From positions 1 to 12,678 of the forward strand of contig DCZN01000115.1 of NCBI GenBank assembly GCA_002331625.1: a stretch of DNA of 12,678 nt. Direction: 5' to 3'. The DNA comes from Nitrospira sp. UBA2083 (GTDB taxonomy: Bacteria; Nitrospirota; Nitrospiria; Nitrospirales; Nitrospiraceae). How positions within the stretch are numbered: position 1 is the stretch's first letter; each line of letters begins with the position of its first letter. Shown here piece by piece: positions 1,004 through 12,678 of the stretch. Made by a program: the position numbers and the translations under genes. The notes under the pieces were generated by a model. That model was not told where the DNA came from and did not search any database. It saw only the letters and a list, made by a program, of their open reading frames with translations.

Positions 1004-2983
1004 ATGTGTGGCATAGCCGGCAGTCTCCAGCTGCATCACGGATCAGCAGACCCGGAACGGCTACATCAGATGATCAGGACAATTCGCTATCGAGGGCCGG
1101 ATGACGTGGGAATCTATAATCATGGTCCGGTTGGGCTCGCGCATGCCCGGCTGAGTATTATTGACCTGGCCGGTGGGCACCAACCGATGTCGATCGCACG
1201 GGAGTCTATCTGGGTCACGTTCAACGGGGAGATTTTTAACTATATTGAGCTTCGTGATGAGTTGATTGCGAAGGGACATCGTTTCACATCGAACTCTGAT
1301 ACGGAGGTCCTGCTGCATCTCTATCAGGAGGAGGGGGAGCAATGTGTGAAGCGACTCAACGGGCAATGGGCGTTTGCCATCTGGGATGCTCCGAAGCAAA
1401 AGCTCTTTCTGTCGCGTGATCGCTTTGGGATTAGGCCACTCTACTATACCGAGGTAAACGGAGAGTTTCTGTTTGCCTCGGAGATCAAGGCCTTGCTGGC
1501 TTGTCCTCAGGTTGCTTGTGCGATTGATCTCAATGGGCTTGATCAGATCTTCACATTTTGGGTGACGGTCCCACCGCGAACCGCCTTCCGAGGCATCAGC
1601 CAGCTGCCCCCAGGACATTCCATGGTCGTCAAAGAAGGTCGTGCCAGGATCTCACCCTATTGGACGATCGATCTTGTTCCTCAGGTCACGAATGGCTGCG
1701 CTAGTGGCAACCAATTAGCTGAGGAATTGCTTGCGCTGCTTCATGATGCGACAAAGATCCGGATGCGCTCCGATGTTCCCGTGGGTGCCTATCTGAGTGG
1801 CGGCATTGATTCGACTGTCATCGCCGCCTTGGCAAGCGGGATCGCTGGCAAACCGGTTTCAACTTTTTCAGTCACGTTTGAAGCTGGCGACTTAGATGAA
1901 AGTAAGTATCAGAGTGAGGCCAGCTCGATTCTCGGGACGTCACACCATGATTTATGTTGTCGCCACGAGGACATTGTTCGCGTATTCCCCGAGGTGATCT
2001 GGCACACGGAGCAGCCAATCCTTCGCAGCGCACCGACTCCTCTCTATCTACTGTCGAAGCGTGTGCGCGATAGCGGCTTCAAAGTGGTGTTGACCGGTGA
2101 AGGGGCGGACGAATTGCTTGGCGGCTATGATATTTTCAAGGAGACGAAGATCCGACAGTTCTGGAGCCGCCGGCCGGACTCCTCCTGGCGTCCGATCCTG
2201 TTAAAGCGTCTCTACCCCTACATGCCTGGTATCCAGCGGCAATCACTGGAGTATCTAAAGTATTTTTTCCATGTTACTCAGGAAGAGCTTGGCAGTCCAT
2301 TCTTCTCCCATCTGCCCCGGTGGGAACTCACGAGCAAAACGAAGCAATTTTTCTCTGAATCCACTCGATCGGAACTGGCTACTGCGGATGCTGTGTTGTC
2401 TCTTCTAGGTGATCTCCCAACTTCCTATGCTATGTGGCCTCCGTTTGCCAAGGCTGAATTCCTCGAAATGCGGTATCTCATGCCTGGGTATATCCTCTCA
2501 TCTCAGGGGGATCGAGTGGCAATGGCGCATGCAGTGGAAGGGCGGTACCCCTTCTTGGATCATCGGCTGGCAACGTTTGCCGCCCGCTTACCGGCCAGCT
2601 TAAAGATGAAAGTGCTCGACCAGAAATACCTATTGAAGCTTGCTGTAAAGGGATTGATACCGGAATCGATAAGGAGAAGGCCAAAACAGCCTTATCGAGC
2701 GCCGGATGGCATAAGTTTCTTCTGTACTAAAGATGGGTATGTCCAGGACCTTCTCTCTCCGACGAGAATCAAACAAGATGGCATTTTCGATGCGCGAGCC
2801 ACTGAGGTATTGGTGAAAAAGTTTCGTTCTGGTAGAGAGACAAGCATCAAGGACAATATGGCTTTGATCGGCATTCTGTCGACGACGCTTCTACTTGACC
2901 GCTTCATGCGTACACGTGGAGAGTGTTTAACGGCTTCTCCCCCTACGAACGCCCAATTGTCCGCATCAGGGTGTCGGCTATAA
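1004..2983 (+). CDS. asnB: Asparagine synthase-type glutamine amidotransferase
   Basis: Class II glutamine amidotransferase fused to an asparagine synthase domain, 659 residues. The N-terminal glutaminase has the nucleophile Cys2 (MCGIAG), RGPDD at 30-34, HARLS near 48, NGE at 74-76 and the glutamine-binding Asp in SDTE near 99. The synthase half has the PP-loop SGGIDS at 265-270 and LTGEGADELLGGY at 363-375, the equivalent of the family's ELFGGY motif. GRYPFLDHRL lies near 520. The enzyme releases ammonia from glutamine and transfers it to an AMP-activated carboxylate. True asparagine synthesis is possible, but such enzymes are common in exopolysaccharide and exosortase loci, where they are thought to amidate a sugar or acyl acid. 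The start is supported by AGGGGG at 991-996, seven bases upstream. The ~30 residues after the synthase domain are unremarkable. An upstream reductase and a downstream carrier protein gene suggest one operon. Confidence 0.92.
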   Translation: MCGIAGSLQLHHGSADPERLHQMIRTIRYRGPDDVGIYNHGPVGLAHARLSIIDLAGGHQPMSIARESIWVTFNGEIFNYIELRDELIAKGHRFTSNSDTEVLLHLYQEEGEQCVKRLNGQWAFAIWDAPKQKLFLSRDRFGIRPLYYTEVNGEFLFASEIKALLACPQVACAIDLNGLDQIFTFWVTVPPRTAFRGISQLPPGHSMVVKEGRARISPYWTIDLVPQVTNGCASGNQLAEELLALLHDATKIRMRSDVPVGAYLSGGIDSTVIAALASGIAGKPVSTFSVTFEAGDLDESKYQSEASSILGTSHHDLCCRHEDIVRVFPEVIWHTEQPILRSAPTPLYLLSKRVRDSGFKVVLTGEGADELLGGYDIFKETKIRQFWSRRPDSSWRPILLKRLYPYMPGIQRQSLEYLKYFFHVTQEELGSPFFSHLPRWELTSKTKQFFSESTRSELATADAVLSLLGDLPTSYAMWPPFAKAEFLEMRYLMPGYILSSQGDRVAMAHAVEGRYPFLDHRLATFAARLPASLKMKVLDQKYLLKLAVKGLIPESIRRRPKQPYRAPDGISFFCTKDGYVQDLLSPTRIKQDGIFDARATEVLVKKFRSGRETSIKDNMALIGILSTTLLLDRFMRTRGECLTASPPTNAQLSASGCRL

Positions 2984-3052
2984 TCGGCCAGAAGTTGATG
3001 TTTAGTCTGGGCCCGATGGTCTCGTGGGGTGAGCAATGGAAAACGCTCAGGC

Positions 3053-3059
3053 GGGAGGA
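3053..3059 (+). promoter_or_regulatory. Ribosome binding site deciding the ACP start
   Basis: GGGAGGA lies nine bases before ATG 3069. That start places the carrier serine at residue 35, as in ordinary acyl carrier proteins. A competing in-frame ATG at 3036 also has a purine-rich GGGGTGAG before it, but only two bases away, and would add eleven residues (MENAQAGGSVS) with no place in the ACP fold. Confidence 0.6.
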
Positions 3060-3068
3060 TCAGTAAGC

Positions 3069-3362
3069 ATGTTACAGGCAATCCGTAGATTCGTCATTGA
3101 CAATTATCTCTTTGGCGAAGACGCGAAATTCGGGAATGAGGACTCCTTTATGGAGACGGGTATTATCGATTCAACCGGCATTCTCGAATTGGTCAGGTTT
3201 GTCGAATCTACTTATAGGATCAAGGTGACTGATGAGGAGTTTATTCCTGACAATCTGGATTCGGTGACCAAACTCGTCTCCTTTATTCACGCAAAACAAT
3301 CAACATCAGTACAGACAGACAGGGAGACCCCAGTTCAATTCGCGGAGAGCTCACTTCAATGA
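3069..3362 (+). CDS. Stand-alone acyl carrier protein
   Basis: A 97-residue phosphopantetheine-carrier protein that would hold an acyl group as a thioester in the cytoplasm. The first helix runs from MLQAIRRFVIDNYLF. The segment EDSFMETGIIDSTGILELVRFVE contains the attachment serine (Ser35, motif DST rather than the usual DSL), followed by the recognition helix. The later EEFIPDNLDSVTKLVSFI is the last helix pair. The ~25-residue tail is Ser/Thr/Gln-rich and likely disordered. It is not the fatty-acid ACP of the cell judging by sequence and context. The stop codon overlaps the next start (ATGA), which signals tight coupling with the NAD synthase-like protein, and an acyl-activating ligase follows as a plausible loading enzyme. 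A start at 3036 (108 residues) cannot be excluded. Confidence 0.85.
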   Translation: MLQAIRRFVIDNYLFGEDAKFGNEDSFMETGIIDSTGILELVRFVESTYRIKVTDEEFIPDNLDSVTKLVSFIHAKQSTSVQTDRETPVQFAESSLQ

Positions 3363-4333
3363 AGACGCAGCCGACTATTGTGTCAGACCTGCTGCATCTG
3401 GACGCTGCAGCAGAAATAGAGCGAATCACTGGATGGATCCGTGAGACCGTCTTTCATAAACTTCGTCGGAAGGGTGCAGTCATTGGAGTTTCTGGCGGGA
3501 TCGATAGTGCTGTCGTGTCCTGCCTCTGTGCGCGAGCTCTTGGGAATAACCGCGTCCTGACTCTTTTTATGCCAGAGGCAGATTCTTCATCAGATAGCCT
3601 TCGGCTTGGTCGAATGGTGACGGAGTCGCTCAACGTTAAATCAATGCTGGAAGACATCAGCCCGATACTCACTGGTGCTCGATGCTACGAGCGGAGGGAT
3701 GCCTCGATCCGTCTAGTGGTCCCGGAATACGGGGATGGCTACAGATGTAAGATTGTCCTTCCAGGCCTTCTTGATGGCAGCCGTTACGCCATTTTTTCCA
3801 TTGTAGTTCAGTCTCCCGATGGGCAAACGAAGAAGGTCCGTCTCACGCCTGAAGCGTATTTGGGCATCGTTGCGGCTACGAATTTTAAGCAGAGGGTCCG
3901 GAAGATGATGGAATACCATCATGCGGATTTGCTGCAGTATGCCGTAGCAGGTACGCCAAACCTCCTGGAGTACGATCAAGGATTTTTTGTGAAGAACGGC
4001 GATGGTGCTGCCGATTTCAAGCCCATTGCACATTTGTACAAGTCACAAGTGTATCAGCTTGCGGCCTATCTTGGCGTGCCTGAGGAAATTCGACGTCGTC
4101 CTCCTACTACAGATACGTACACGTTGGAACAATCGCAGGAAGAATTCTACTTTACATTGCCATACGAGCAGATGGACCTTTGTCTCTACGGGAAAGATCA
4201 TGGCATTTCTGCATCAGATCTAGCGCATGCATGCGGCATGACTGAAGATCTGGTGGAACGCGCGTACCACATGATTGAGTCAAAAAGAAAGGTCGCGAGA
4301 TATCTGCATATGCAATCGATAACCATCGATTAG
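3359..4333 (+). CDS. NAD synthase-like PP-loop amide ligase
   Basis: A 324-residue member of the NadE/PP-loop ATP pyrophosphatase superfamily. VIGVSGGIDSAVV holds the PP-loop (45-50), and MPEADSSSDS (71-80), NFKQRVRKMM (175-184), GTPNLLEYDQGFF (198-210), GDGAADFKPI (214-223) and KSQVYQLAAYLGVPEEI (228-244) follow the NadE order. NadE adenylates a carboxylate and turns it into an amide with ammonia. Three things are unlike housekeeping NadE. About 60 residues (roughly 107-170) are inserted before the NxKxRxR motif. The usual KxPTADL reads RRPPTTDT (247-254). The QxDE motif reads QSQEEF. There is no glutaminase domain, so ammonia must come from elsewhere. The ATGA overlap with the carrier protein gene and its RBS GGAGAG at 3344-3349 indicate co-translation. 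I favour amidation of a pathway acid, possibly carrier-bound, over NAD synthesis; this is inference. Confidence 0.82.
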   Translation: MKTQPTIVSDLLHLDAAAEIERITGWIRETVFHKLRRKGAVIGVSGGIDSAVVSCLCARALGNNRVLTLFMPEADSSSDSLRLGRMVTESLNVKSMLEDISPILTGARCYERRDASIRLVVPEYGDGYRCKIVLPGLLDGSRYAIFSIVVQSPDGQTKKVRLTPEAYLGIVAATNFKQRVRKMMEYHHADLLQYAVAGTPNLLEYDQGFFVKNGDGAADFKPIAHLYKSQVYQLAAYLGVPEEIRRRPPTTDTYTLEQSQEEFYFTLPYEQMDLCLYGKDHGISASDLAHACGMTEDLVERAYHMIESKRKVARYLHMQSITID

Positions 4334-4373
4334 CCCAGAATCCACCCCTCTCTCCTTTCCGCCGCGCTTGAAC

Positions 4374-5912
4374 ATGGTAAGTGAGAAAAACGTTGCACAG
4401 TACTTGCTGTCCGGGAAAGATCCTTCTCGGCTTGCACTCAACTTTCTCCAATCACCGATCTCTTATGGAGCGCTTACCGCTTACGCCGGTCAGATTGCAG
4501 CCTATCTACTTCAATGCGGCGCCAGACATGGCGACCGAGTCCTTCTGGTAAGTGAGAATTCACTCTTTTGGGTGAGCTGCTATTTGGGGACACTGCAAGC
4601 AGGACTTGTTGCGGTGCCCATTGCCGTCAATAGTGCTGCTGGAGATCTCGGCCATATTCTCAGAACGACCGGTGCCAAGATAGCCTGTGTTCAAGTTTCG
4701 GTCGCAACCGCTCACGCTAGCGTTTTCTCGGGAATCCATCTGATCACCGACCGCGACATTTCCCCGATGGCGGCGGCAGTATCTCAACAGAGCTTTTCGA
4801 GTCTCCGCTCTGGCGAGCCATCCTCACCTGGCTATGCGTCGGTCGGCTCGGACGACTTGGCTGCCTTGGTGTTTACATCTGGCTCGACTGGCAAGCCGCG
4901 GGGAGCAATGATTACCCACTCAAATATTGTCGCCAATACAGAATCCATCATCTCCTACCTTTCTCTGAACGCGCAGGACCGCATGATGGCGGTCTTGCCT
5001 TTTCACTATTGTTACGGCGCGTCGCTTCTCCATACGCACTTACGAGTTGGTGGGGAGGTCGTGGTGGACAATCGGTTTATGTATCCAGAAACTGTACTCC
5101 AGCGAATGATTGAAACAAAGTGCACAGGATTTGCCGGAGTACCGAGCCATTTCCAGATTCTCCTGAGAAGTTCTAGCTTTAAGAGGAGGAGGTTCCCGGA
5201 TTTGAGACATGTGCAGCAAGCTGGTGGGCACTTGGCGCCGACCTTTGTTCGAGAATTAATAAAGTTCCTGCCAGGCACGAAGATATACATTATGTACGGA
5301 CAGACAGAGGCTACGGCGCGACTCTCCTACTTGCCGCCCGATGTGCTGGAGGACAAGCTCGGATCAATCGGCAAGGGGATGTTGGGTGTGACGCTGCGTG
5401 TCGTGGATGAGCAAGGACGGGAGGTGCAATCAGGTGAAGTAGGTGAGATTGTTGCTGAAGGCGCTAATGTTGCGATGGGGTATTGGCAAGAGCCTAAAGA
5501 ATCAGCGGTCGTATTCCGTAACGGTTTACTGCACACAGGTGACTTAGCCAGGGTTGATGAAGACGGGTTCATCTATATTGTGGACCGGGCAAAAGACTTT
5601 TTGAAATGCCGTGGAGAAAAGGTCAGTTGCAGGGAGATTGAGGAGGTATTGTTGGAGTGTGGTGAACTAGTTGAAGCCGCGGTCGTCGGCATTCCCGATG
5701 ACGTGCTTGGCGAGGCGATCAAGGCATTTACTGTCCCTCGAAAGAACAATATTGATGGCCTTGAGGAACATGTGGCGTCCTTCTGTAAAGCCAGATTGCC
5801 TCTACACCACCTGCCAAAACAGATTGTTGTCCTGCCGTCCCTTCCTAAGAACAGCGCCGGAAAAGTCATGAAGGCCGCCTTGCGAACTAACACTCAGATT
5901 CAGCCTCACTGA
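4374..5912 (+). CDS. AMP-forming acyl-CoA/acyl-ACP ligase
   Basis: A 512-residue ANL-superfamily adenylating enzyme of the type often annotated as exosortase-associated acyl-CoA ligase. It activates a carboxylic acid as acyl-AMP and passes it to CoA or a phosphopantetheine carrier. Visible motifs are the P-loop LVFTSGSTGKPRG (165-177), PFHYCYG (209-215), YGQTEATAR (308-316), HTGDLA (387-392), DRAKDFLKCRGEKVS (404-418) and the catalytic lysine in NSAGK (Lys497) near the C-terminus. Length is normal and nothing is missing. The start is awkward: ATG 4374 (or TTG 4368) is preceded by a pyrimidine-rich stretch with no Shine-Dalgarno sequence, so translation may depend on coupling with the upstream gene, which ends 40 bases before. 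The acyl carrier protein two genes upstream is the natural acceptor candidate. The acid is unknown. Confidence 0.92.
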   Translation: MVSEKNVAQYLLSGKDPSRLALNFLQSPISYGALTAYAGQIAAYLLQCGARHGDRVLLVSENSLFWVSCYLGTLQAGLVAVPIAVNSAAGDLGHILRTTGAKIACVQVSVATAHASVFSGIHLITDRDISPMAAAVSQQSFSSLRSGEPSSPGYASVGSDDLAALVFTSGSTGKPRGAMITHSNIVANTESIISYLSLNAQDRMMAVLPFHYCYGASLLHTHLRVGGEVVVDNRFMYPETVLQRMIETKCTGFAGVPSHFQILLRSSSFKRRRFPDLRHVQQAGGHLAPTFVRELIKFLPGTKIYIMYGQTEATARLSYLPPDVLEDKLGSIGKGMLGVTLRVVDEQGREVQSGEVGEIVAEGANVAMGYWQEPKESAVVFRNGLLHTGDLARVDEDGFIYIVDRAKDFLKCRGEKVSCREIEEVLLECGELVEAAVVGIPDDVLGEAIKAFTVPRKNNIDGLEEHVASFCKARLPLHHLPKQIVVLPSLPKNSAGKVMKAALRTNTQIQPH

Positions 5913-6236
5913 CCTCCTTTCCCTGATTGCCTGTATCGCGAACGAGAATATCACTCACGAGAATGGTCTGACTACTTCACGTTTCTCTCAGCCTACCTAA
6001 GCACGTCAGCAGTCTGATTCATTCCTGCCCAGAACTGCACATTCCTCAGACCTTCCATCGGTTGCCCCAATCGTAATCGGCATGCGGTGCAGGAGATTGT
6101 CACGCCCCTCAGTGTCCCTCTTTGTGAACTGTAGCAATACAAGTGCGGACGCAGAAATGATCGCCAGAATGGACCATATTGAATCGCGTGTGCCTTTGCA
6201 GAGTCCTTACTGTGACAAAGTCAGGTGTATTCTTCC
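5913..6236 (+). other. Gene-free gap before the exosortase
   Basis: No coding region is convincing on either strand of this 324-base stretch. It separates the five-gene biosynthetic block from the exosortase pair, so a promoter is expected here. I looked for a sigma-54 element (GG-N10-GC with the surrounding consensus) and for a well-spaced sigma-70 pair and found neither clearly. No terminator-like GC stem with a T-run follows the ligase gene. The AGGTG at 6223-6227 serves as ribosome binding site for the exosortase ATG at 6237. Confidence 0.5.
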
Positions 6237-7199
6237 ATGAGAGGGACTCATCTTAGAAAAAGCGAAGACGGCTTGGAAGATGGAGCGGATTCGTTGGAAG
6301 CCCACCATGACCGTGGTCTGCCGAGCCATGCCTTGTCGTGGTGCTCCAGTTGGCGGGATGCTTTCGCTCTCGTGATGTTCATTGGGGTGTGTGTGTGGTT
6401 TTGGGTGCCGCTCGTGAAGCTCTTTGTCCTTGCTTCTGAGAACGAGCACTACTCCCATGTGTTGTTGATTCCAGCATTGACTTTCTATCTGCTGTTCATG
6501 AATAGGACGGCCATACTGACTTCTCAGACATGGTGCCCTGTTGTCGGTCTGTTGGTCATGGTCAGTGGTGCTGTCGGCTATCAGCTCACTGATGGGCTAG
6601 ATTGGACAGAAAATCGATTGGCCGTGGCGATTATAGCCTTTGTTGTGATGTGCTGGGGGCTGTTTCTCATGAGTTTTGGAGCGAGGTGCTTTCGATTGAA
6701 TTTGTTCATCTTGATGATGCTCCTGTTTATGGTTCCCGTGCCTTCTTTTGTTCTGGACGTCATCGTCGGATTTCTGCAGCGCAACTCTGCTGACGCGGTG
6801 AGTTTTCTTTTTTCAGCCCTAGGCATCCCTGTCCTTCGCGAGGGATTCATTTTCAAGCTGTCGAATTTCACCATCGTTGTTGCAGAGGAATGCAGCGGAA
6901 TTCGCTCCTTTCTCTCGCTGGGCATCACCAGTCTGGTCACTGGTTACTGGTTTTTGACATCTGGGTGGGCTAGGGCCACGTTAGTGGTGGTTGTCGTTCC
7001 ACTGGCCATCATCAAGAATGCGTTCCGTATCGTCGGCCTGGCGCTGCTGGCCAATTACGTCGATCCAGTCTATATCACAGACAGTATGTTGCACCGGAGC
7101 GGTGGTATCCCCCTCTTTCTGCTCTCGCTGGTCGTGCTGTTCGGTGTGGTGTGGTTCCTTCGGCGATGTGAGTGCCGACTGGCTTCCACGATAGTGTAG
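6237..7199 (+). CDS. Exosortase (EpsH/Xrt family)
   Basis: A 320-residue inner-membrane cysteine protease/transpeptidase-like enzyme that recognises C-terminal PEP motifs of exported proteins. About eight hydrophobic segments can be seen (near 42-66, 74-88, 101-117, 128-149, 154-180, 224-244, 247-272 and 292-308). The three conserved active-site positions are present: Cys219 in AEECSGIRS, Arg264 in NAFRI and His286 in LHRSGG. The protein ends shortly after the last membrane helix, so it lacks the periplasmic EpsI-like domain fused to many XrtA proteins. I therefore do not assign a subtype. ATG 6237 was chosen over GTG 6225 because AGGTG lies nine bases before it. The FemAB-like gene starts 12 bases after the stop, so the two are co-transcribed. 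A VPEPAS protein encoded 2.9 kb downstream is the visible candidate substrate. Confidence 0.93.
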   Translation: MRGTHLRKSEDGLEDGADSLEAHHDRGLPSHALSWCSSWRDAFALVMFIGVCVWFWVPLVKLFVLASENEHYSHVLLIPALTFYLLFMNRTAILTSQTWCPVVGLLVMVSGAVGYQLTDGLDWTENRLAVAIIAFVVMCWGLFLMSFGARCFRLNLFILMMLLFMVPVPSFVLDVIVGFLQRNSADAVSFLFSALGIPVLREGFIFKLSNFTIVVAEECSGIRSFLSLGITSLVTGYWFLTSGWARATLVVVVVPLAIIKNAFRIVGLALLANYVDPVYITDSMLHRSGGIPLFLLSLVVLFGVVWFLRRCECRLASTIV

Positions 7200-7211: not shown

Positions 7212-8288
7212 ATGGTGGAATGTGGTGGTAGGGGTGTGGTCGTATCCCAGACGATCCACGTTCTCGATCCGCTAACAGATCCTCGGTGGACTGGATTTGT
7301 TGAAAGGCATCCAGCTGCCTCGGTGTTTCATTCTCGTGGGTGGTTATGCGCCTTGCAGATGACCTATGGCTATGAACCACTTGCCGTCACTACGTCGATG
7401 CCGACCGAGCCGTTGACAAACGCATTGCTGTTTTGCCTGGTTCGAAGCGTGATGACTGGCGGTCGGCTCGTTTCGCTACCCTTCACGGACCACTGCGAGC
7501 CGCTTGTCGAAAACGTCGAGCAACTCCGAGCACTGTGTGATCATCTCGACACGCTGCGAAGAGCAGAGGGATGTCAATATACCGAAATACGAACCAGCGG
7601 CTCGATCATCGGTTTCGAAGAGAGCTTTAAGGAATGCGATGTCTATCAGTGGCATCGGCTCGACCTTCGGTCCAGCCTTGATGCCTTATATAAGGGATTC
7701 CATAAGGATTGCATTAGACGAAGAATTCGTCACGCGGAACGACAAGGCCTTATATATGAAGAGGGACGGACCAAACCCTTAGTACAGTCATTATATGACC
7801 TCATCGTGTTGACGAGATTGCGCAAACATGTTCCGCCACAGCCATTCGAATGGTTCCAAAATCTCGTTGCCTCTATGGGCAATAATGTCTGCATTCGGGT
7901 CGCTTTCAAAGAGGGTCGGCCGATCGCAGGAATTCTGACCATGAATCATGGAAAAACCATGTACTACAAGTACGGCGGATCCGATGCCACATTTAACCAT
8001 TTGGGGGCGACCCCGATGCTTTTCTGGCAAGCCATTCAAGCTGCCAGATCAGCGGGGATGGAAGAACTCGATTTGGGTCGATCGGATGCCGAGAATCGAG
8101 GACTGATTAAGTTCAAGGAACGTTGGGGAGCACAACGTGTACCACTCACTGTGTGGCGAGGCCCTGCTGATACGGTTTCTCCTTTCTTAGACCGTCTAAA
8201 GGTGCACTTGGCAAAAGCTGTTTGCGGGGGTGTACCGTCCAAGTTGCTGGTCTTGGCGGGGAGGCTCCTGTATCGCCATATCGGCTGA
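7212..8288 (+). CDS. FemAB-related GNAT protein of exosortase loci
   Basis: A 358-residue cytoplasmic protein of the FemAB/GNAT fold, matching the group known as FemAB-related, PEP-CTERM system-associated. FemAB relatives transfer aminoacyl or acyl groups onto amines, classically on peptidoglycan precursors; the acceptor of this group is unknown. Seen in order: a first half-domain with FHSRGWLCALQMTYGYEPLA (39-58) and LPFTDHCEPL (89-98); a basic segment KDCIRRRIRHAERQGL (165-180); and the C-terminal acyltransferase core with GRPIAGILTMNHG (235-247), YYKYGGSDATFNHLGATPMLFWQAI (251-275) and ELDLGRSDAENRGLIKFKERWG (285-306). ATG 7212 follows the purine-rich stretch 7201-7210. The first ~12 residues are Gly/Val-rich and atypical, so the true start may be slightly further in. 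It shares an operon with the exosortase, which suggests a role in making the polysaccharide or lipid that goes with sorting. Confidence 0.87.
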   Translation: MVECGGRGVVVSQTIHVLDPLTDPRWTGFVERHPAASVFHSRGWLCALQMTYGYEPLAVTTSMPTEPLTNALLFCLVRSVMTGGRLVSLPFTDHCEPLVENVEQLRALCDHLDTLRRAEGCQYTEIRTSGSIIGFEESFKECDVYQWHRLDLRSSLDALYKGFHKDCIRRRIRHAERQGLIYEEGRTKPLVQSLYDLIVLTRLRKHVPPQPFEWFQNLVASMGNNVCIRVAFKEGRPIAGILTMNHGKTMYYKYGGSDATFNHLGATPMLFWQAIQAARSAGMEELDLGRSDAENRGLIKFKERWGAQRVPLTVWRGPADTVSPFLDRLKVHLAKAVCGGVPSKLLVLAGRLLYRHIG

Positions 8289-8341: not shown

Positions 8342-8408
8342 ACGCGAGAAACCAGCATGCGATATCCATCCAAATCGTTGCCGGCCTGAGACAGTGGAGT
8401 ACTAGGGC

Positions 8409-9803
8409 ATGACAACACATCCTACCTTGCTCCTTATCGATGATGAGGCTGTTACTCGGAGCGAGATGACCTCCGCGCTCGCATCCAATTACGAGATCCT
8501 TGAAGCATCGGGTCGCGCCAATGCTCTCTCACAGATTCGCCTGGTCATGCCACCGCTGGTATTGCTTAACCTGGATCCTTCCTCTAACGTGGAAGGAACC
8601 GCGGAGGGTTTGATCATACTGCGAGAGACAGTCCAGCTCAATCCCATGACCAAGGTCATCGTGATGGTCGGAAGCAACGATCGAACGAAAGCCGCTGCAG
8701 CAATGGAAGGTGGGGCGTACGATATTCTTGAAAAGCCTGTCCAGCTCGATGTGTTGAAGGTGGTGTTGCAGAGGGCAATGTATCTGTTCAACCTGGAGCG
8801 CGAGAGTCGCGCTGTTCGGGAGGAGGTCAGTGGGACTGAATTCCAAGGTCTTGTGGGTACCAGCAAGCCGATGCAAGAGGTGTTTGGCATGATCCGCCGT
8901 GTCGGGCCTGCTGACGTTCCGATCCTCATCACAGGTGAGAGCGGGACGGGGAAGGAACTCGTGGCTCGTGCGATCCACCGACTAAGTGGGCGAAAAGACG
9001 CACCTTTTGTCGCGATCAACTGCGGTGCAATCCCGGAGACACTGCTGGAGAGTGAGCTGTTCGGTTATGAGAAAGGGGCATTTACCGGCGCTGTCCAGCA
9101 ACGAAAAGGTCGGATTGAATCCGCGCAAGGCGGCACGCTTTTCCTTGATGAAATCGGAGACATCCCTCTCAGTCTGCAGGTCAAGTTGCTGCGGTTTTTG
9201 CAAGAGCATGAAGTCCATCGGTTGGGAGGAAGACATAAGATTTCAGTCGATGTCCGGGTTCTTGCTGCGACGAACATTGATCTGCAAGAGGCTATCAACT
9301 CTGGTCGATTCAGAGAGGATTTGTTCTACAGGCTTTGTGTCGTGGGTATTCCCGTCCCTAGTCTGAAGACACGGGGTTCTGACATCACTCTCCTCGCGAA
9401 GCAATTCTTCGCGAAGTTTGCGGAAGCACACAAGAAACCCCTGAAAGGGTTTACCTCGCAAGGGATCGAAGCGATACTGGCGCACAATTGGCCTGGGAAT
9501 GTCAGGGAGCTAGAAAATCGGGTTAAACGAGCTGTGGTGATGGCGGAAGGGAAATACATCACCCCTGCTAACTTGGAATTGAAAGACCTCTCCTCCGGTC
9601 ATAGCGATGTTACGACACTCCGAGGCGCACGCGACCTTCGCGAGAAGGAGTTGGTGAGGATCATTCTGGACAAAGTCGATGGCAATGTCTCCAAGGCGGC
9701 TATTGAGCTGGGGATTAGCCGGCCCACCCTCTACCAGTTGCTCTCTCGATATAGGTTAAGACCCTCAAAATTTGACGCTGAACATGGAGAAAGAAGAGTT
9801 TGA
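8409..9803 (+). CDS. prsR: PrsR-type sigma-54 activator with altered receiver
   Basis: A 464-residue NtrC-family response regulator of the PEP-CTERM (PrsR) type, expected to activate sigma-54 promoters of exosortase-related genes. The receiver domain (about 5-120) keeps the acidic pair in LLIDDEA (Asp11, Asp12) and Lys108 in ILEKPV. The phosphoacceptor position reads LLNLDP (Asn54 where Asp is expected), and the conserved Thr/Ser after strand 4 reads Val86 in VIVMVGSND. The AAA+ domain is intact: Walker A GESGTGKE (175-182), the sigma-54-contacting GAFTGA (222-227), Walker B GTLFLDEIGD (241-250) and FREDLFYRL with arginine fingers (300-308). A Fis-type helix-turn-helix (VSKAAIELGISRPTLYQLL, 426-444) ends the protein. 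ATG 8409 has GGAG nine bases upstream. No histidine kinase gene is adjacent, although PrsK commonly accompanies PrsR. Family assignment is strong; the phosphorylation-independent mode is inferred. Confidence 0.92.
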   Translation: MTTHPTLLLIDDEAVTRSEMTSALASNYEILEASGRANALSQIRLVMPPLVLLNLDPSSNVEGTAEGLIILRETVQLNPMTKVIVMVGSNDRTKAAAAMEGGAYDILEKPVQLDVLKVVLQRAMYLFNLERESRAVREEVSGTEFQGLVGTSKPMQEVFGMIRRVGPADVPILITGESGTGKELVARAIHRLSGRKDAPFVAINCGAIPETLLESELFGYEKGAFTGAVQQRKGRIESAQGGTLFLDEIGDIPLSLQVKLLRFLQEHEVHRLGGRHKISVDVRVLAATNIDLQEAINSGRFREDLFYRLCVVGIPVPSLKTRGSDITLLAKQFFAKFAEAHKKPLKGFTSQGIEAILAHNWPGNVRELENRVKRAVVMAEGKYITPANLELKDLSSGHSDVTTLRGARDLREKELVRIILDKVDGNVSKAAIELGISRPTLYQLLSRYRLRPSKFDAEHGERRV

Positions 9804-9976
9804 AGAAGACGCCAAAATGCAAATATATTTTACATACCGAGAGTTTCCTAACTAGTTGAAACCGTTGAAGCAAAATTTTCCAAGATCTTTTTCTAGTAAC
9901 TGGATGTAATACTTCTTTACAGCCCAAATTTTCTGAATGAAGAGTCGAGCACAATAGCCCAATACTTTTAACGGCT

Positions 9977-9994: not shown

Positions 9995-10010
9995 GAGCAC
10001 GGGTTATGCT
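9995..10010 (+). promoter_or_regulatory. Imperfect sigma-54-like -24/-12 element
   Basis: GAGCACGGGTTATGCT matches the consensus TGGCACG-N4-TTGCT with correct spacing and an intact -12 GC. The nearly invariant -24 GG reads AG, and the T before the -12 TGC reads A. If used, transcription would start near 10020, giving a ~45-base leader before ATG 10066. The element sits directly downstream of a sigma-54 activator gene and before a PEP-CTERM gene, where such promoters are common. The -24 mismatch keeps the confidence low. Confidence 0.4.
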
Positions 10011-10065: not shown

Positions 10066-10323
10066 ATGAAGAAACGGGGTAGCTTTATTCACTCTATTCT
10101 TTTTGGAATTGCCATAATGACTCCAGGGTTATCCGAGAATCTGGCAATGGCTCAGACGACTACTAGCCTAGTTAGTGATAGCGCTGGCCTTGCTAGTTTT
10201 AAACCCAGACCGAGACCTTGTGGCCGAGGGTGCGCGTCCGTTCCAGAACCAGCATCGATGATTCTGCTAGGTACTGGCTTAGCTGGGCTTGGAATTTTGA
10301 GGCGGGCCTCCAGAAAAGATTAA
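10066..10323 (+). CDS. Very small PEP-CTERM sorting-domain protein
   Basis: An 85-residue exported protein and the likely exosortase substrate in this window. MKKRGSFIHSILFGIAIM is a signal peptide start with probable cleavage after AMA (about residue 29). The C-terminus is a complete sorting signal: VPEPAS (59-64), the hydrophobic stretch MILLGTGLAGLGIL (65-78) and a basic end RRASRKD. What remains between the two signals is only about 30 residues, TTTSLVSDSAGLASFK followed by PRPRPCGRGCAS, containing two cysteines and a Pro/Arg cluster. It has no recognisable catalytic or binding domain; it might be a surface peptide, a matrix-attached tag or a crosslinking unit, which the sequence does not decide. 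It has its own promoter region upstream and a terminator just after, so it is probably a highly expressed single-gene transcript (inference). Start chosen by the TGAGGA ribosome site. Confidence 0.88.
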   Translation: MKKRGSFIHSILFGIAIMTPGLSENLAMAQTTTSLVSDSAGLASFKPRPRPCGRGCASVPEPASMILLGTGLAGLGILRRASRKD

Positions 10324-11460: not shown

Positions 11461-12051
11461 TTAGGATTGGGCCGAAGGCGTCACCGCTGTGATTTCAGTT
11501 GAACAAACGCTGTCGGTCTTGTTGAACGCGCGGATAGCGAAAAAGTATTGTGTATTGGGTTCGAGCCCGGTAATTGTTGCGGATGAATCCTCCACGGCAA
11601 GGCTTTCCCCTTGAGAGCATGAATTTGGTTCTTCCGGGTTTGACTCTTGCTGACCTGGTTCTTCTGAATCTACCTCTTCCGAATTTGATTCTTGTGAAGC
11701 TGATTCTGCTGATGAGCGTTTCCCATAGTGGATGGAGTAACCATCAACGTTGAAATTGGAAGGACGATCCCAAGTCACATGCGCAGTCACTCCGGTTGAT
11801 GTCAAAGTCATAGTGATCTTTGGATCTTCTTCGTGTCCAGAATCTGTTGCTTGGGAGCTGAACCCTTGATCTGAGTCCAGTCTTGCCGGCTCATCCGTTG
11901 GCGTCGAGAGGCTCGACACGATCGGTCCTCCCGCTCCATCATTTGTGCAGCCGGCCAGTAGTACGAGGGGCAGAATCAAAAATGCGAGATGGGGTATTGC
12001 AATGATGGATTTCCTGGAGGCAAAGCTGACGAAAGTTTTACGCGACAACAT
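11461..12051 (-). CDS. Fibronectin type III lipoprotein with acidic insertion
   Basis: A 196-residue lipoprotein. The signal peptide ends in the lipobox LLAGC (Cys35), so the protein should be lipid-anchored in the cell envelope. After a disordered Ser/Thr/Asp linker (36-77), one fibronectin type III domain spans 78-193: TAHVTWDRPSNFNVDGYSIHYGKR at the front and ATITGLEPNTQYFFAIRAFNKTDS at the back. The loop between the two halves carries a ~36-residue Glu/Ser/Gln-rich insertion (113-148) built from imperfect ten-residue units; Cys145 and Cys183 may form a disulfide. No PEP-CTERM signal is present. The start is supported by GAGGAG about seven bases before ATG. It lies behind the other fibronectin gene on the same strand but 302 bases from it, so co-transcription is uncertain. 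Its role is unknown, most likely envelope or extracellular matrix binding. Confidence 0.85.
   Translation of the reverse strand: MLSRKTFVSFASRKSIIAIPHLAFLILPLVLLAGCTNDGAGGPIVSSLSTPTDEPARLDSDQGFSSQATDSGHEEDPKITMTLTSTGVTAHVTWDRPSNFNVDGYSIHYGKRSSAESASQESNSEEVDSEEPGQQESNPEEPNSCSQGESLAVEDSSATITGLEPNTQYFFAIRAFNKTDSVCSTEITAVTPSAQS
11627..11716 (-). repeat. Three imperfect 30-base tandem units inside the lipoprotein gene
   Basis: On the plus strand the units 11627-11656, 11657-11686 and 11687-11716 begin GGTTCTTCC, GGTTCTTCT and GATTCTTGT and share a T-C-T-rich pattern. In the protein they give residues 112-142, with repeated ESNxEE/SEEP motifs. The length, a multiple of three, keeps the frame. Confidence 0.55.
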
Positions 12052-12678
12052 AGAGACACTCCTCTTCAGTAATTTGGTATAGGAACTATGCTGGCGTTTA
12101 GCCCGTGCCTATTGGTGATCAATTAGGAGAATGTAAGGCAGAAGGGATCACCACCATTACCGTCTTCCTTATGCGCAGGAGGGGCAGCAAAAATGATGCC
12201 GTCAGAAACATGATCTATAAGTTTGATTTCTCAGTTCTTCGAGTAAATAGTCGGATCTGGAAAGTGTAGCGAGTGAAGGGTTCAGCCTTCAGAAGGCTCA
12301 AGCAGAAGTGAGAGGAAAGATCAAGAAAAGGCCTAGTGGCTGTTCAAGGTTTCTGCTTGCTTGTGGTCCAACGATGCAGGATTGAGTGGCCAAAATACAT
12401 TTGGGATTCCTTAAGGAGCGAAGCAGTCTCGAGAAAAAATGAACGCAAATAGCCGCTCACCATCATGCAACGGGGCTTTGCTGGAGTGGCGAGGTTCCAC
12501 TCCGCCGAGAAGTGCTCTGTATCTGAACTTGGGATATGACTTAGGTGATAATAGAGTGCTCTTACGCACTTTTTTGGACGAGGAGCTTTCCCTGGTGTCG
12601 TTATAGACAGAAACAGAGTAGGTTATACCAGCATAAGTTGTCCACTTGTGGTCATGGATGTTGTGGAAGTGAAATAGT
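12052..12678. other. 627 bases without a convincing gene
   Basis: The left part must hold the promoter of the lipoprotein gene (minus strand). An eight-base inverted repeat, TGGTGATC (12113-12120) / GATCACCA (12146-12153), lies 62-102 bases before its start. Smaller hairpins occur at 12284-12298 (AGCCTT/AAGGCT) and 12483-12503 (GGAGTGG/CCACTCC). On the minus strand a frame stays open from the window edge (12677) to a stop at 12411, without an in-frame ATG; its peptide resembles nothing I know and it may be chance. No tRNA, insertion sequence or CRISPR array was seen. Confidence 0.45.

Follow-up and report, generated by a model that had tools for sequence, protein, structure and literature searches.

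Pseudo-receivers in activators such as FleQ, which works with sigma-54, are already known. The protein considered here resembles FleQ of Pseudomonas (c-di-GMP, FleN; PMC12632262) in being an ATPase-type activator with an apparent pseudo-receiver, the family being a different one, and it resembles the pseudo-receivers and aspartate-less receivers described more generally (PMC12632262, PMC4395418) in being an orphan that has lost at least one of five conserved residues. How bacterial pseudo-receivers are activated and inactivated remains a mystery, according to a 2025 review (PMC12632262). Closest in family is PrsR, the regulator of the PEP-CTERM/exosortase system (TIGR02915; PMC1569441). In the 2006 account by Haft, PEP-CTERM genes of Proteobacteria are preceded by a -24/-12 element and, on average 63 nt before that element, by a 17-nt motif ending in TTTACA; the same profile led to the proposal of the three Prs proteins (PMC1569441).

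The window analysed here, a whole contig of 12,678 bases from a Nitrospira assembly (4.44 Mb in 137 contigs, 89.5% complete), carries on its plus strand, in this order, genes for an aldo/keto reductase, an asparagine-synthase-type amidotransferase, an acyl-carrier-like protein, a NAD-synthase-type protein, an AMP ligase, an exosortase, a FemAB-like protein, PrsR and a small PEP-CTERM protein, followed by two fibronectin-type genes on the minus strand. Those immediately upstream of the likely target are:

6225..7199, plus strand: exosortase (TIGR02602, 123.7 bits, cut-off 105.55)
7212..8288, plus strand: FemAB-like gene, whose counterpart precedes prsK-prsR in six relatives
8409..9803, plus strand: prsR, a sigma-54 activator of the NtrC kind, 464 aa, with a receiver (about residues 1-125, Pfam Response_reg), an ATPase (about 143-395, Sigma54_activat) and a Fis-type helix-turn-helix (HTH, 411-448, HTH_8)

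The likeness to the described PrsR (PMC1569441) extends from the NtrC-like domains and the family score, which at 559.3 bits exceeds the curated TIGR02915 cut-off of 502.6, to a 17-nt motif and a -24/-12 element before a PEP-CTERM gene and an exosortase nearby. Four differences stand against it: no PrsK was found, pocket residues of the receiver are lost, there is apparently a single, adjacent target, and the locus lies in Nitrospira whereas Haft describes the motif only from Proteobacteria (PMC1569441). The hallmarks of an NtrC-type activator are all present (GESGTGKE as Walker A, GAFTGA and the Fis-type HTH), and in an alignment of 44 sequences the Walker A, GAFTGA and HTH columns are mostly invariant, so that the intact output half reported by the initial annotation is borne out. 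As for the neighbourhood, the cassette at 1004-5912 (amidotransferase, acyl-carrier-like protein, NAD-synthase-type protein and AMP ligase) adjoins the exosortase in the window and in genome G046; some of its genes occur at G040 on the opposite strand, and none at the other loci viewed that lack a kinase gene, so the cassette is not fixed to prsR.

The receiver pocket was read from an alignment with 28 other orthologues and from an AlphaFold2 model built from the window protein and 43 of 120 listed homologues. The model is confident over the receiver (pLDDT 73-92 per ten-residue block over residues 1-130) and poor over the remainder (whole-model mean 54.3), and for that reason only the strand positions of the receiver were used. 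In it the ends of strands 3, 4 and 5 fall at residues 54, 87 and 108, which makes residues 54, 87 and 109 the canonical positions of the acceptor, the Thr/Ser and the Lys; a long helix 5 continues into the linker. All positions below are on the plus strand:

8439..8444: Asp11-Asp12 acidic pair, retained (alignment, codons)
8568..8570: Asn54 at the phospho-acceptor position, end of strand 3, codon AAC (alignment, model)
8574..8576: Asp56, in the loop between strand 3 and helix 3, not the canonical acceptor (alignment, model)
8667..8669: Val87 at the switch Thr/Ser position, end of strand 4, codon GTC (alignment, model)
8724..8726: Ile106 at the K-3 position, where all 19 reference orthologues have Phe (alignment)
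8733..8735: Lys109, retained (alignment)

Column 54 holds Asp in the other orthologues, with Gly in one, and column 87 holds Thr or its replacement. The initial annotation had therefore been right that the acceptor aspartate is replaced by Asn54 and that the Asp11/Asp12 pair is kept; it had also recognised the loss of the switch residue and the retention of the lysine, and gave the correct nucleotide range, but numbered the two residues Val86 and Lys108, one residue short in each case. With D54N and T87V the protein lacks conserved pocket residues, as pseudo-receivers do; it does not qualify as a phosphorylatable receiver and, judged from its pocket, should not accept phosphate in the usual way. 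The best full-length solved match, PDB 4l4u, shares the three-domain layout, aligned over window residues 4-449, and the long helix 5 leading into the linker, but has Asp and Thr where the window protein has Asn54 and Val87. We take this structure to be NtrC1 of Aquifex, an NtrC1-type regulator that is presumably repressed by its own unphosphorylated receiver.

In the 13 species described by Haft, kinase and regulator are always at least close to each other (PMC1569441), whereas the window has no PrsK. As the initial annotation had noted, none adjoins prsR; none lies between femAB and prsR, an interval that is contiguous in the window although the assembly is 89.5% complete. A profile search of the whole assembly, made to look for a PrsK elsewhere in the genome, likewise returned none over the family cut-off: among 46 matches to the PrsK model the best reaches 126.9 bits against the required 300 and sits 58 nt before a match of another NtrC-type regulator. 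The order exosortase-FemAB-PrsK-PrsR is found in six of the 12 PrsK-bearing regions viewed (G059, G023, G042, G100, G040 and G130), the other six having PrsK before PrsR behind different genes. By comparison, seven of nine regions from genomes without a PrsK match have FemAB followed directly by PrsR, preceded by the exosortase in six (the seventh is G099), and G146 and G167 have other genes upstream of prsR. Within the 120-nt gap of the window there is a further feature:

8348..8389, plus strand: relic of the last 13 codons and stop codon of prsK (28 of 42 nt shared with the sister genome G023)

This stretch keeps the register of G023, stop codon included, and in both genomes a 19-nt spacer separates it from the ATG of prsR; none of 20,000 shuffles gave an equally good in-register match. 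By local alignment, as good a match arose in two of 2000 shuffles for the window, in none of 2000 for G126 and in eight of 2000 for G105; in the last two the stop of the prsK tail lies 20 and 18 nt before prsR, respectively, one base out of register with G023. Local alignment found no relic in the other six of the nine gaps. From the sequence comparison, prsK is deleted from a conserved gene order and a relic of it persists in the window.

The nine genomes come from a family-level search of 175 genomes at 1e-192, which gave 17 matches: eight with a PrsK match and nine without (G000, which is the genome of the window, G146, G126, G151, G046, G099, G105, G167 and G158; PrsK searched at 1e-55 for six and 1e-50 for three). 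Three of the nine besides that of the window are under 90% complete. Weaker prsR orthologues were drawn from a genus search (79 genomes) and a sample of 147. The comparison set consists of 18 orthologues with a readable receiver and PrsK within 2 kb, 17 of them over the cut-off; G079 is counted here despite a partial kinase match of 237 bits, under the cut-off. Together with G144 they form the reference set of 19. G144 itself, which has an intact pocket, no PrsK found and its prsR at the start of a contig, stands outside the pocket counts, as do G130 (PrsK present; Asp11, Asp12 and Asp54 intact, the rest of the receiver not readable), G008 (PrsK present, receiver sequence not covered), G027 (Glu-Asp/Asp/Thr/Lys, with a piece of PrsK at a contig end), G125 and eight more distant PrsR-like proteins.

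Written as residues 11 and 12/54/87/109, the pocket is DD/D/T/K in all 18 orthologues with PrsK. The kinase-less genomes read DD/N/V/K (G000), DD/D/T/K (G146), GD/D/T/K (G126), DD/D/M/K (G151), DN/D/A/K (G046), GD/D/I/K (G099), GR/G/M/K (G105), AS/D/T/K (G167) and TH/D/L/L (G158), so that the pocket is substituted in eight of nine, with one to four changes and a different set in each, against none of 18 (Fisher p 4e-6, a value that ignores shared ancestry); G146 alone among the nine has the whole pocket intact. Over residues 4-145, Phe106 is the sole residue shared by all 19 reference orthologues and found in none of the nine kinase-less proteins, which have Ile (seven) or Val (two) instead.

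A tree of the ATPase and DNA-binding domains of 29 sequences groups the nine as a clade with support 79, beside the PrsK-bearing G023, and gives the nine plus G023 a support of 100. Adding the best 120 of 4301 passing homologues to these 29 gave a 149-sequence tree in which 51 of those 120 database proteins join the nine in a 60-member clade (node support 0.73), the lack of a PrsK match within it referring to the nine genomes; the separation of the kinase-less clade from its sister G023 is thus only moderately supported by these trees (79; 0.73). Among the 51, P0069 is without its N-terminus, and 47 of the 50 with a readable pocket are changed, the three intact ones being P0003 (taken as the G146 protein), P0016 and P0047. 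The acceptor is lost in nine of the 51, three times by deletion; neither Thr nor Ser is present at position 87 in 23, the Lys is lost in eight, and Phe106 is kept in two (P0016 and P0044). The Asp pair as such is lost in 34 of 50, with a non-acidic residue in 30. Outside the clade, again within the best 120 of 4301 and the genome sequences, 84 of 89 read DD/D/T/F/K (F being residue 106), and the five exceptions comprise two incomplete sequences, the changed P0032 and P0045 in neighbouring branches, and G027. Parsimony on the 149-sequence tree places 53 pocket changes inside the clade (51 without P0069, two reflecting only its missing N-terminus) and three outside, over branch lengths of 6.3 and 6.1. 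The corresponding counts inside and outside, in the same sample, are 3 and 6 for Walker A, 5 and 2 for GAFTGA and 3 and 0 for Walker B (11 and 8 in sum), and 24 and 37 for the HTH.

Some further PrsR-like proteins were observed along the way. One in G104 (L137:3439-4809; 520 bits, over the cut-off) has the pocket Glu-Tyr/Asn/Leu/Arg, and G104 gave no PrsK match at 1e-55; its sequence possibly represents an independent case of the same decay. In genus g18, PrsR-like genes were seen at L135, L136, L138 and L139, two of them scoring 501.3 and 494.5 bits, just under the cut-off; no PrsK-like gene occurs in the stretch viewed at these four loci, the first acidic residue is Thr or Glu, and one protein (G069) has Asn54. 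In G058 and G101 a similar protein of 190-200 aa, by eye of the M15 peptidase type, follows the PrsR-like gene.

These comparisons bear on two other ways of accounting for the pocket. An error of sequencing at codons 54 and 87, or of assembly in a contig join that dropped prsK, might be suspected in a draft of 137 contigs and 89.5% completeness. Asp54 to Asn requires a single base change, but Thr87 to Val requires at least two; pocket losses recur in seven other kinase-less genomes and in the 47 of 50 readable clade proteins among the best 120 of 4301, and in other genomes, too, contiguous sequence lacks prsK at this position, in G099 on a 1.8-Mb contig. We therefore reject the idea of error, to which we attach almost no probability. 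It might also be supposed that PrsR is still phosphorylated, by a different kinase or by acetyl phosphate, whether at Asp56 or at some other site, since Asp11, Asp12 and Lys109 are retained and histidine kinases are many (the 46 PrsK-model matches). Asp56, which the initial annotation had offered as a shifted acceptor, fails in this role: the alignment and the strand ends place residue 54 at the acceptor position with no indel and Asp56 two residues off, outside the canonical site, in a column that is Gly in 19 of 19 reference orthologues, and among the nine it recurs only in G167, which retains Asp54 as well. As other members have lost Asp11 or Asp12, or have deleted the acceptor, continued phosphorylation seems very improbable.

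The rates of evolution separate the receiver from the rest of the protein. On a fixed topology, the ratio of total branch length in the nine kinase-less members to that in the PrsK-bearing ingroup is 1.09 for the receiver (bootstrap range 0.89-1.41 over 40 replicates). The ATPase gives 0.46 (0.37-0.53) and the DNA-binding domain 0.44 (no bootstrap), so that receiver evolution in the kinase-less members is up about 2.4-fold relative to the ATPase. Median pairwise dN/dS, compared between the nine kinase-less and six PrsK-bearing sequences, is 0.27 against 0.08 for the receiver, 0.28 against 0.18 for the linker, 0.12 against 0.07 for the ATPase and 0.22 against 0.12 for the DNA-binding domain, values that are rough because synonymous sites are near saturation. 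The somewhat higher values in the ATPase and DNA-binding domain mean that part of the rise is general, yet on these estimates the receiver shows the largest rise by a wide margin, and its dN/dS, well below 1, indicates that purifying selection on it continues.

The persistence of this selection on the receiver would fit a domain that now senses some other input (a small molecule, redox state or a partner protein), so that activity is still regulated. Helix 5 and the linker are kept (V119, Q121, R122, A123, Y125 and L129, for example, are invariant in the 44 sequences), and pseudo-receivers under ligand, redox or protein control have been described (PMC12632262). No new conserved pocket is apparent, however: over residues 4-145, Ser41 alone is invariant among the nine and infrequent in the reference set, and the losses differ between lineages, as would be expected of drift. 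We hold a new input to be possible but rather unlikely. The initial annotation had proposed an activator that is constitutive or responds to another signal; its premise, a receiver that should not take up phosphate in the normal manner, is supported, and the lineage-by-lineage losses favour plain phosphorylation independence over a remodelled sensor.

Whether PrsR still has something to activate is addressed by the intergenic region behind it, which contains, on the plus strand:

9818..9834: predicted PrsR box 1, TGTAA-N7-TTACA, 9 of 10 positions (pattern scan)
9905..9921: predicted PrsR box 2, TGTAA-N7-TTACA, 10 of 10 positions, the sole exact copy in the assembly (pattern scan)
9995..10010: -24/-12-like sigma-54 promoter, 90 nt from the start of box 2, with AG rather than GG at -24
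10066..10323: small PEP-CTERM gene, likely target (TIGR02595, 25.3 bits, cut-off 16, scanned from 10027; the start at 10066 was chosen from an alignment, the list of open reading frames having 10027)

The boxes agree with the motif of Haft in length, end and distance (73 nt), the comparison being with its description in the text rather than its logo; the upstream motif and sigma-54 element associated with TIGR02915 are thus both found in the window, the -24 element imperfectly. A small PEP-CTERM gene stands behind prsR in all nine kinase-less genomes, and each of the nine gaps has at least one box with nine or more matches, seven having two, 78-88 nt apart. Over 20 regions, 38 copies of TGTAA-N7-TTACA were found against 6.6 expected from mononucleotide shuffles, and no other spacing from 4 to 10 was enriched in these regions; an intergenic copy is present in seven of 11 PrsK-bearing regions and in none of the remaining four. 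A combined pattern of box plus promoter has one match each in six of the nine kinase-less genomes, always in the prsR gap and the sole match in the assembly, as against 11 matches in seven of 13 PrsK-bearing genomes (two directly behind prsR, one about 4 kb on and eight elsewhere); a reversed-pattern control gave no match in 22 genomes. This distribution is a weak hint at a regulon reduced to the neighbouring gene. Counts of exact boxes were not used as evidence, since the genome of the window has one against three in the reversed-pattern control, and the sigma-54 scan alone gives 180 matches, hardly above the 141 in mononucleotide shuffles. RpoN is present in all seven genomes searched, including that of the window.

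The AG in place of GG at -24 is shared by six of the nine kinase-less genomes, and the predicted promoter before the PEP-CTERM gene of the window may on this account be weak or dead; such a change may offset an always-active PrsR, or may mark a dying promoter. It is thus one of the points that would suit a PrsR decaying towards a pseudogene and activating nothing, along with the few exact boxes in kinase-less genomes, the fast-evolving receiver and the somewhat raised dN/dS of the other domains. All nine copies are nonetheless free of internal stops (two matches run past their own C-terminal stop), the ATPase and the DNA-binding domain have a common branch-length ratio that is much lower than that of the receiver, and boxes are kept in every gap, so we judge such decay unlikely, more so than a change of input.

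A separate sigma-54 signal was noticed at the far end of the window, where the lipoprotein-like fibronectin gene (11461-12051, minus strand) has a conserved -24/-12 promoter, YGGCATCRYTYTTGCT, near 12201; the same promoter stands before fibronectin-type relatives at L093, L094 and L096-L099. Its upstream palindrome, TGAAGG-N6-CCTTCA, differs from the PrsR box, and these genes were accordingly set aside as PrsR targets. By this pattern, a second sigma-54 activator may act on the same locus.

The reading that we consider probable is that deletion of PrsK left a phosphorylation-independent local sigma-54 activator, one that we infer to be constitutively active. The loss of the kinase gene would go back, most likely, to a single deletion in an ancestor of this Nitrospira group, and PrsR would, as we propose, have survived because it was able to act without phosphate. 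The sequences show that its receiver pocket is eroding in many lineages, to a much greater extent than the output half, and that the boxes and the sigma-54-type promoter are kept. PrsR would still bind the two predicted boxes and drive the PEP-CTERM promoter constitutively, its amount setting the output as the simplest control left, and the PEP-CTERM product would presumably be processed by the exosortase encoded upstream. The receiver may have been kept as a folded, perhaps dimer-forming, module rather than as a phosphate switch. A candidate for the change that released PrsR is the replacement of Phe at K-3 by Ile or Val in all nine kinase-less proteins. Phe106 is the K-3 residue of Y-T coupling (PMC12632262), which is the reason to point at it; that this coupling is disputed for NtrC (PMC4395418) counts against it. 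Also counting against this explanation as a whole are the intact pocket of G146, the retention of Phe106 in P0016 and P0044 and the missing relic in six of nine gaps.

As to the order of events, we lean slightly towards a course in which a single gene deletion converted a two-component system into a module of one component, always on and with a single target, the K-3 aromatic residue having been lost early and in common, and the metal-binding pair, the Thr, the acceptor Asp and the Lys in independent losses thereafter. Among the matches listed, the titles and abstract openings on Prs and on atypical and orphan receivers mention neither a PrsR without PrsK nor a decay series of this kind. Set against known pseudo-receivers, the lineage of the window differs in that pocket loss can be seen in many degrees, together with relatives that still have the kinase and a relic of its deleted gene. 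The likely cause (loss of the kinase gene), the relatives that keep the kinase, the degrees of decay and a predicted operator and target are thus all found in one gene lineage, and with cause, relatives and degrees of decay so united, a handful of proteins would suffice to test in which order the events took place and which change was the activating one. If the explanation is true, these PrsR proteins would constitute a natural evolutionary series for response regulators becoming independent of phosphorylation.
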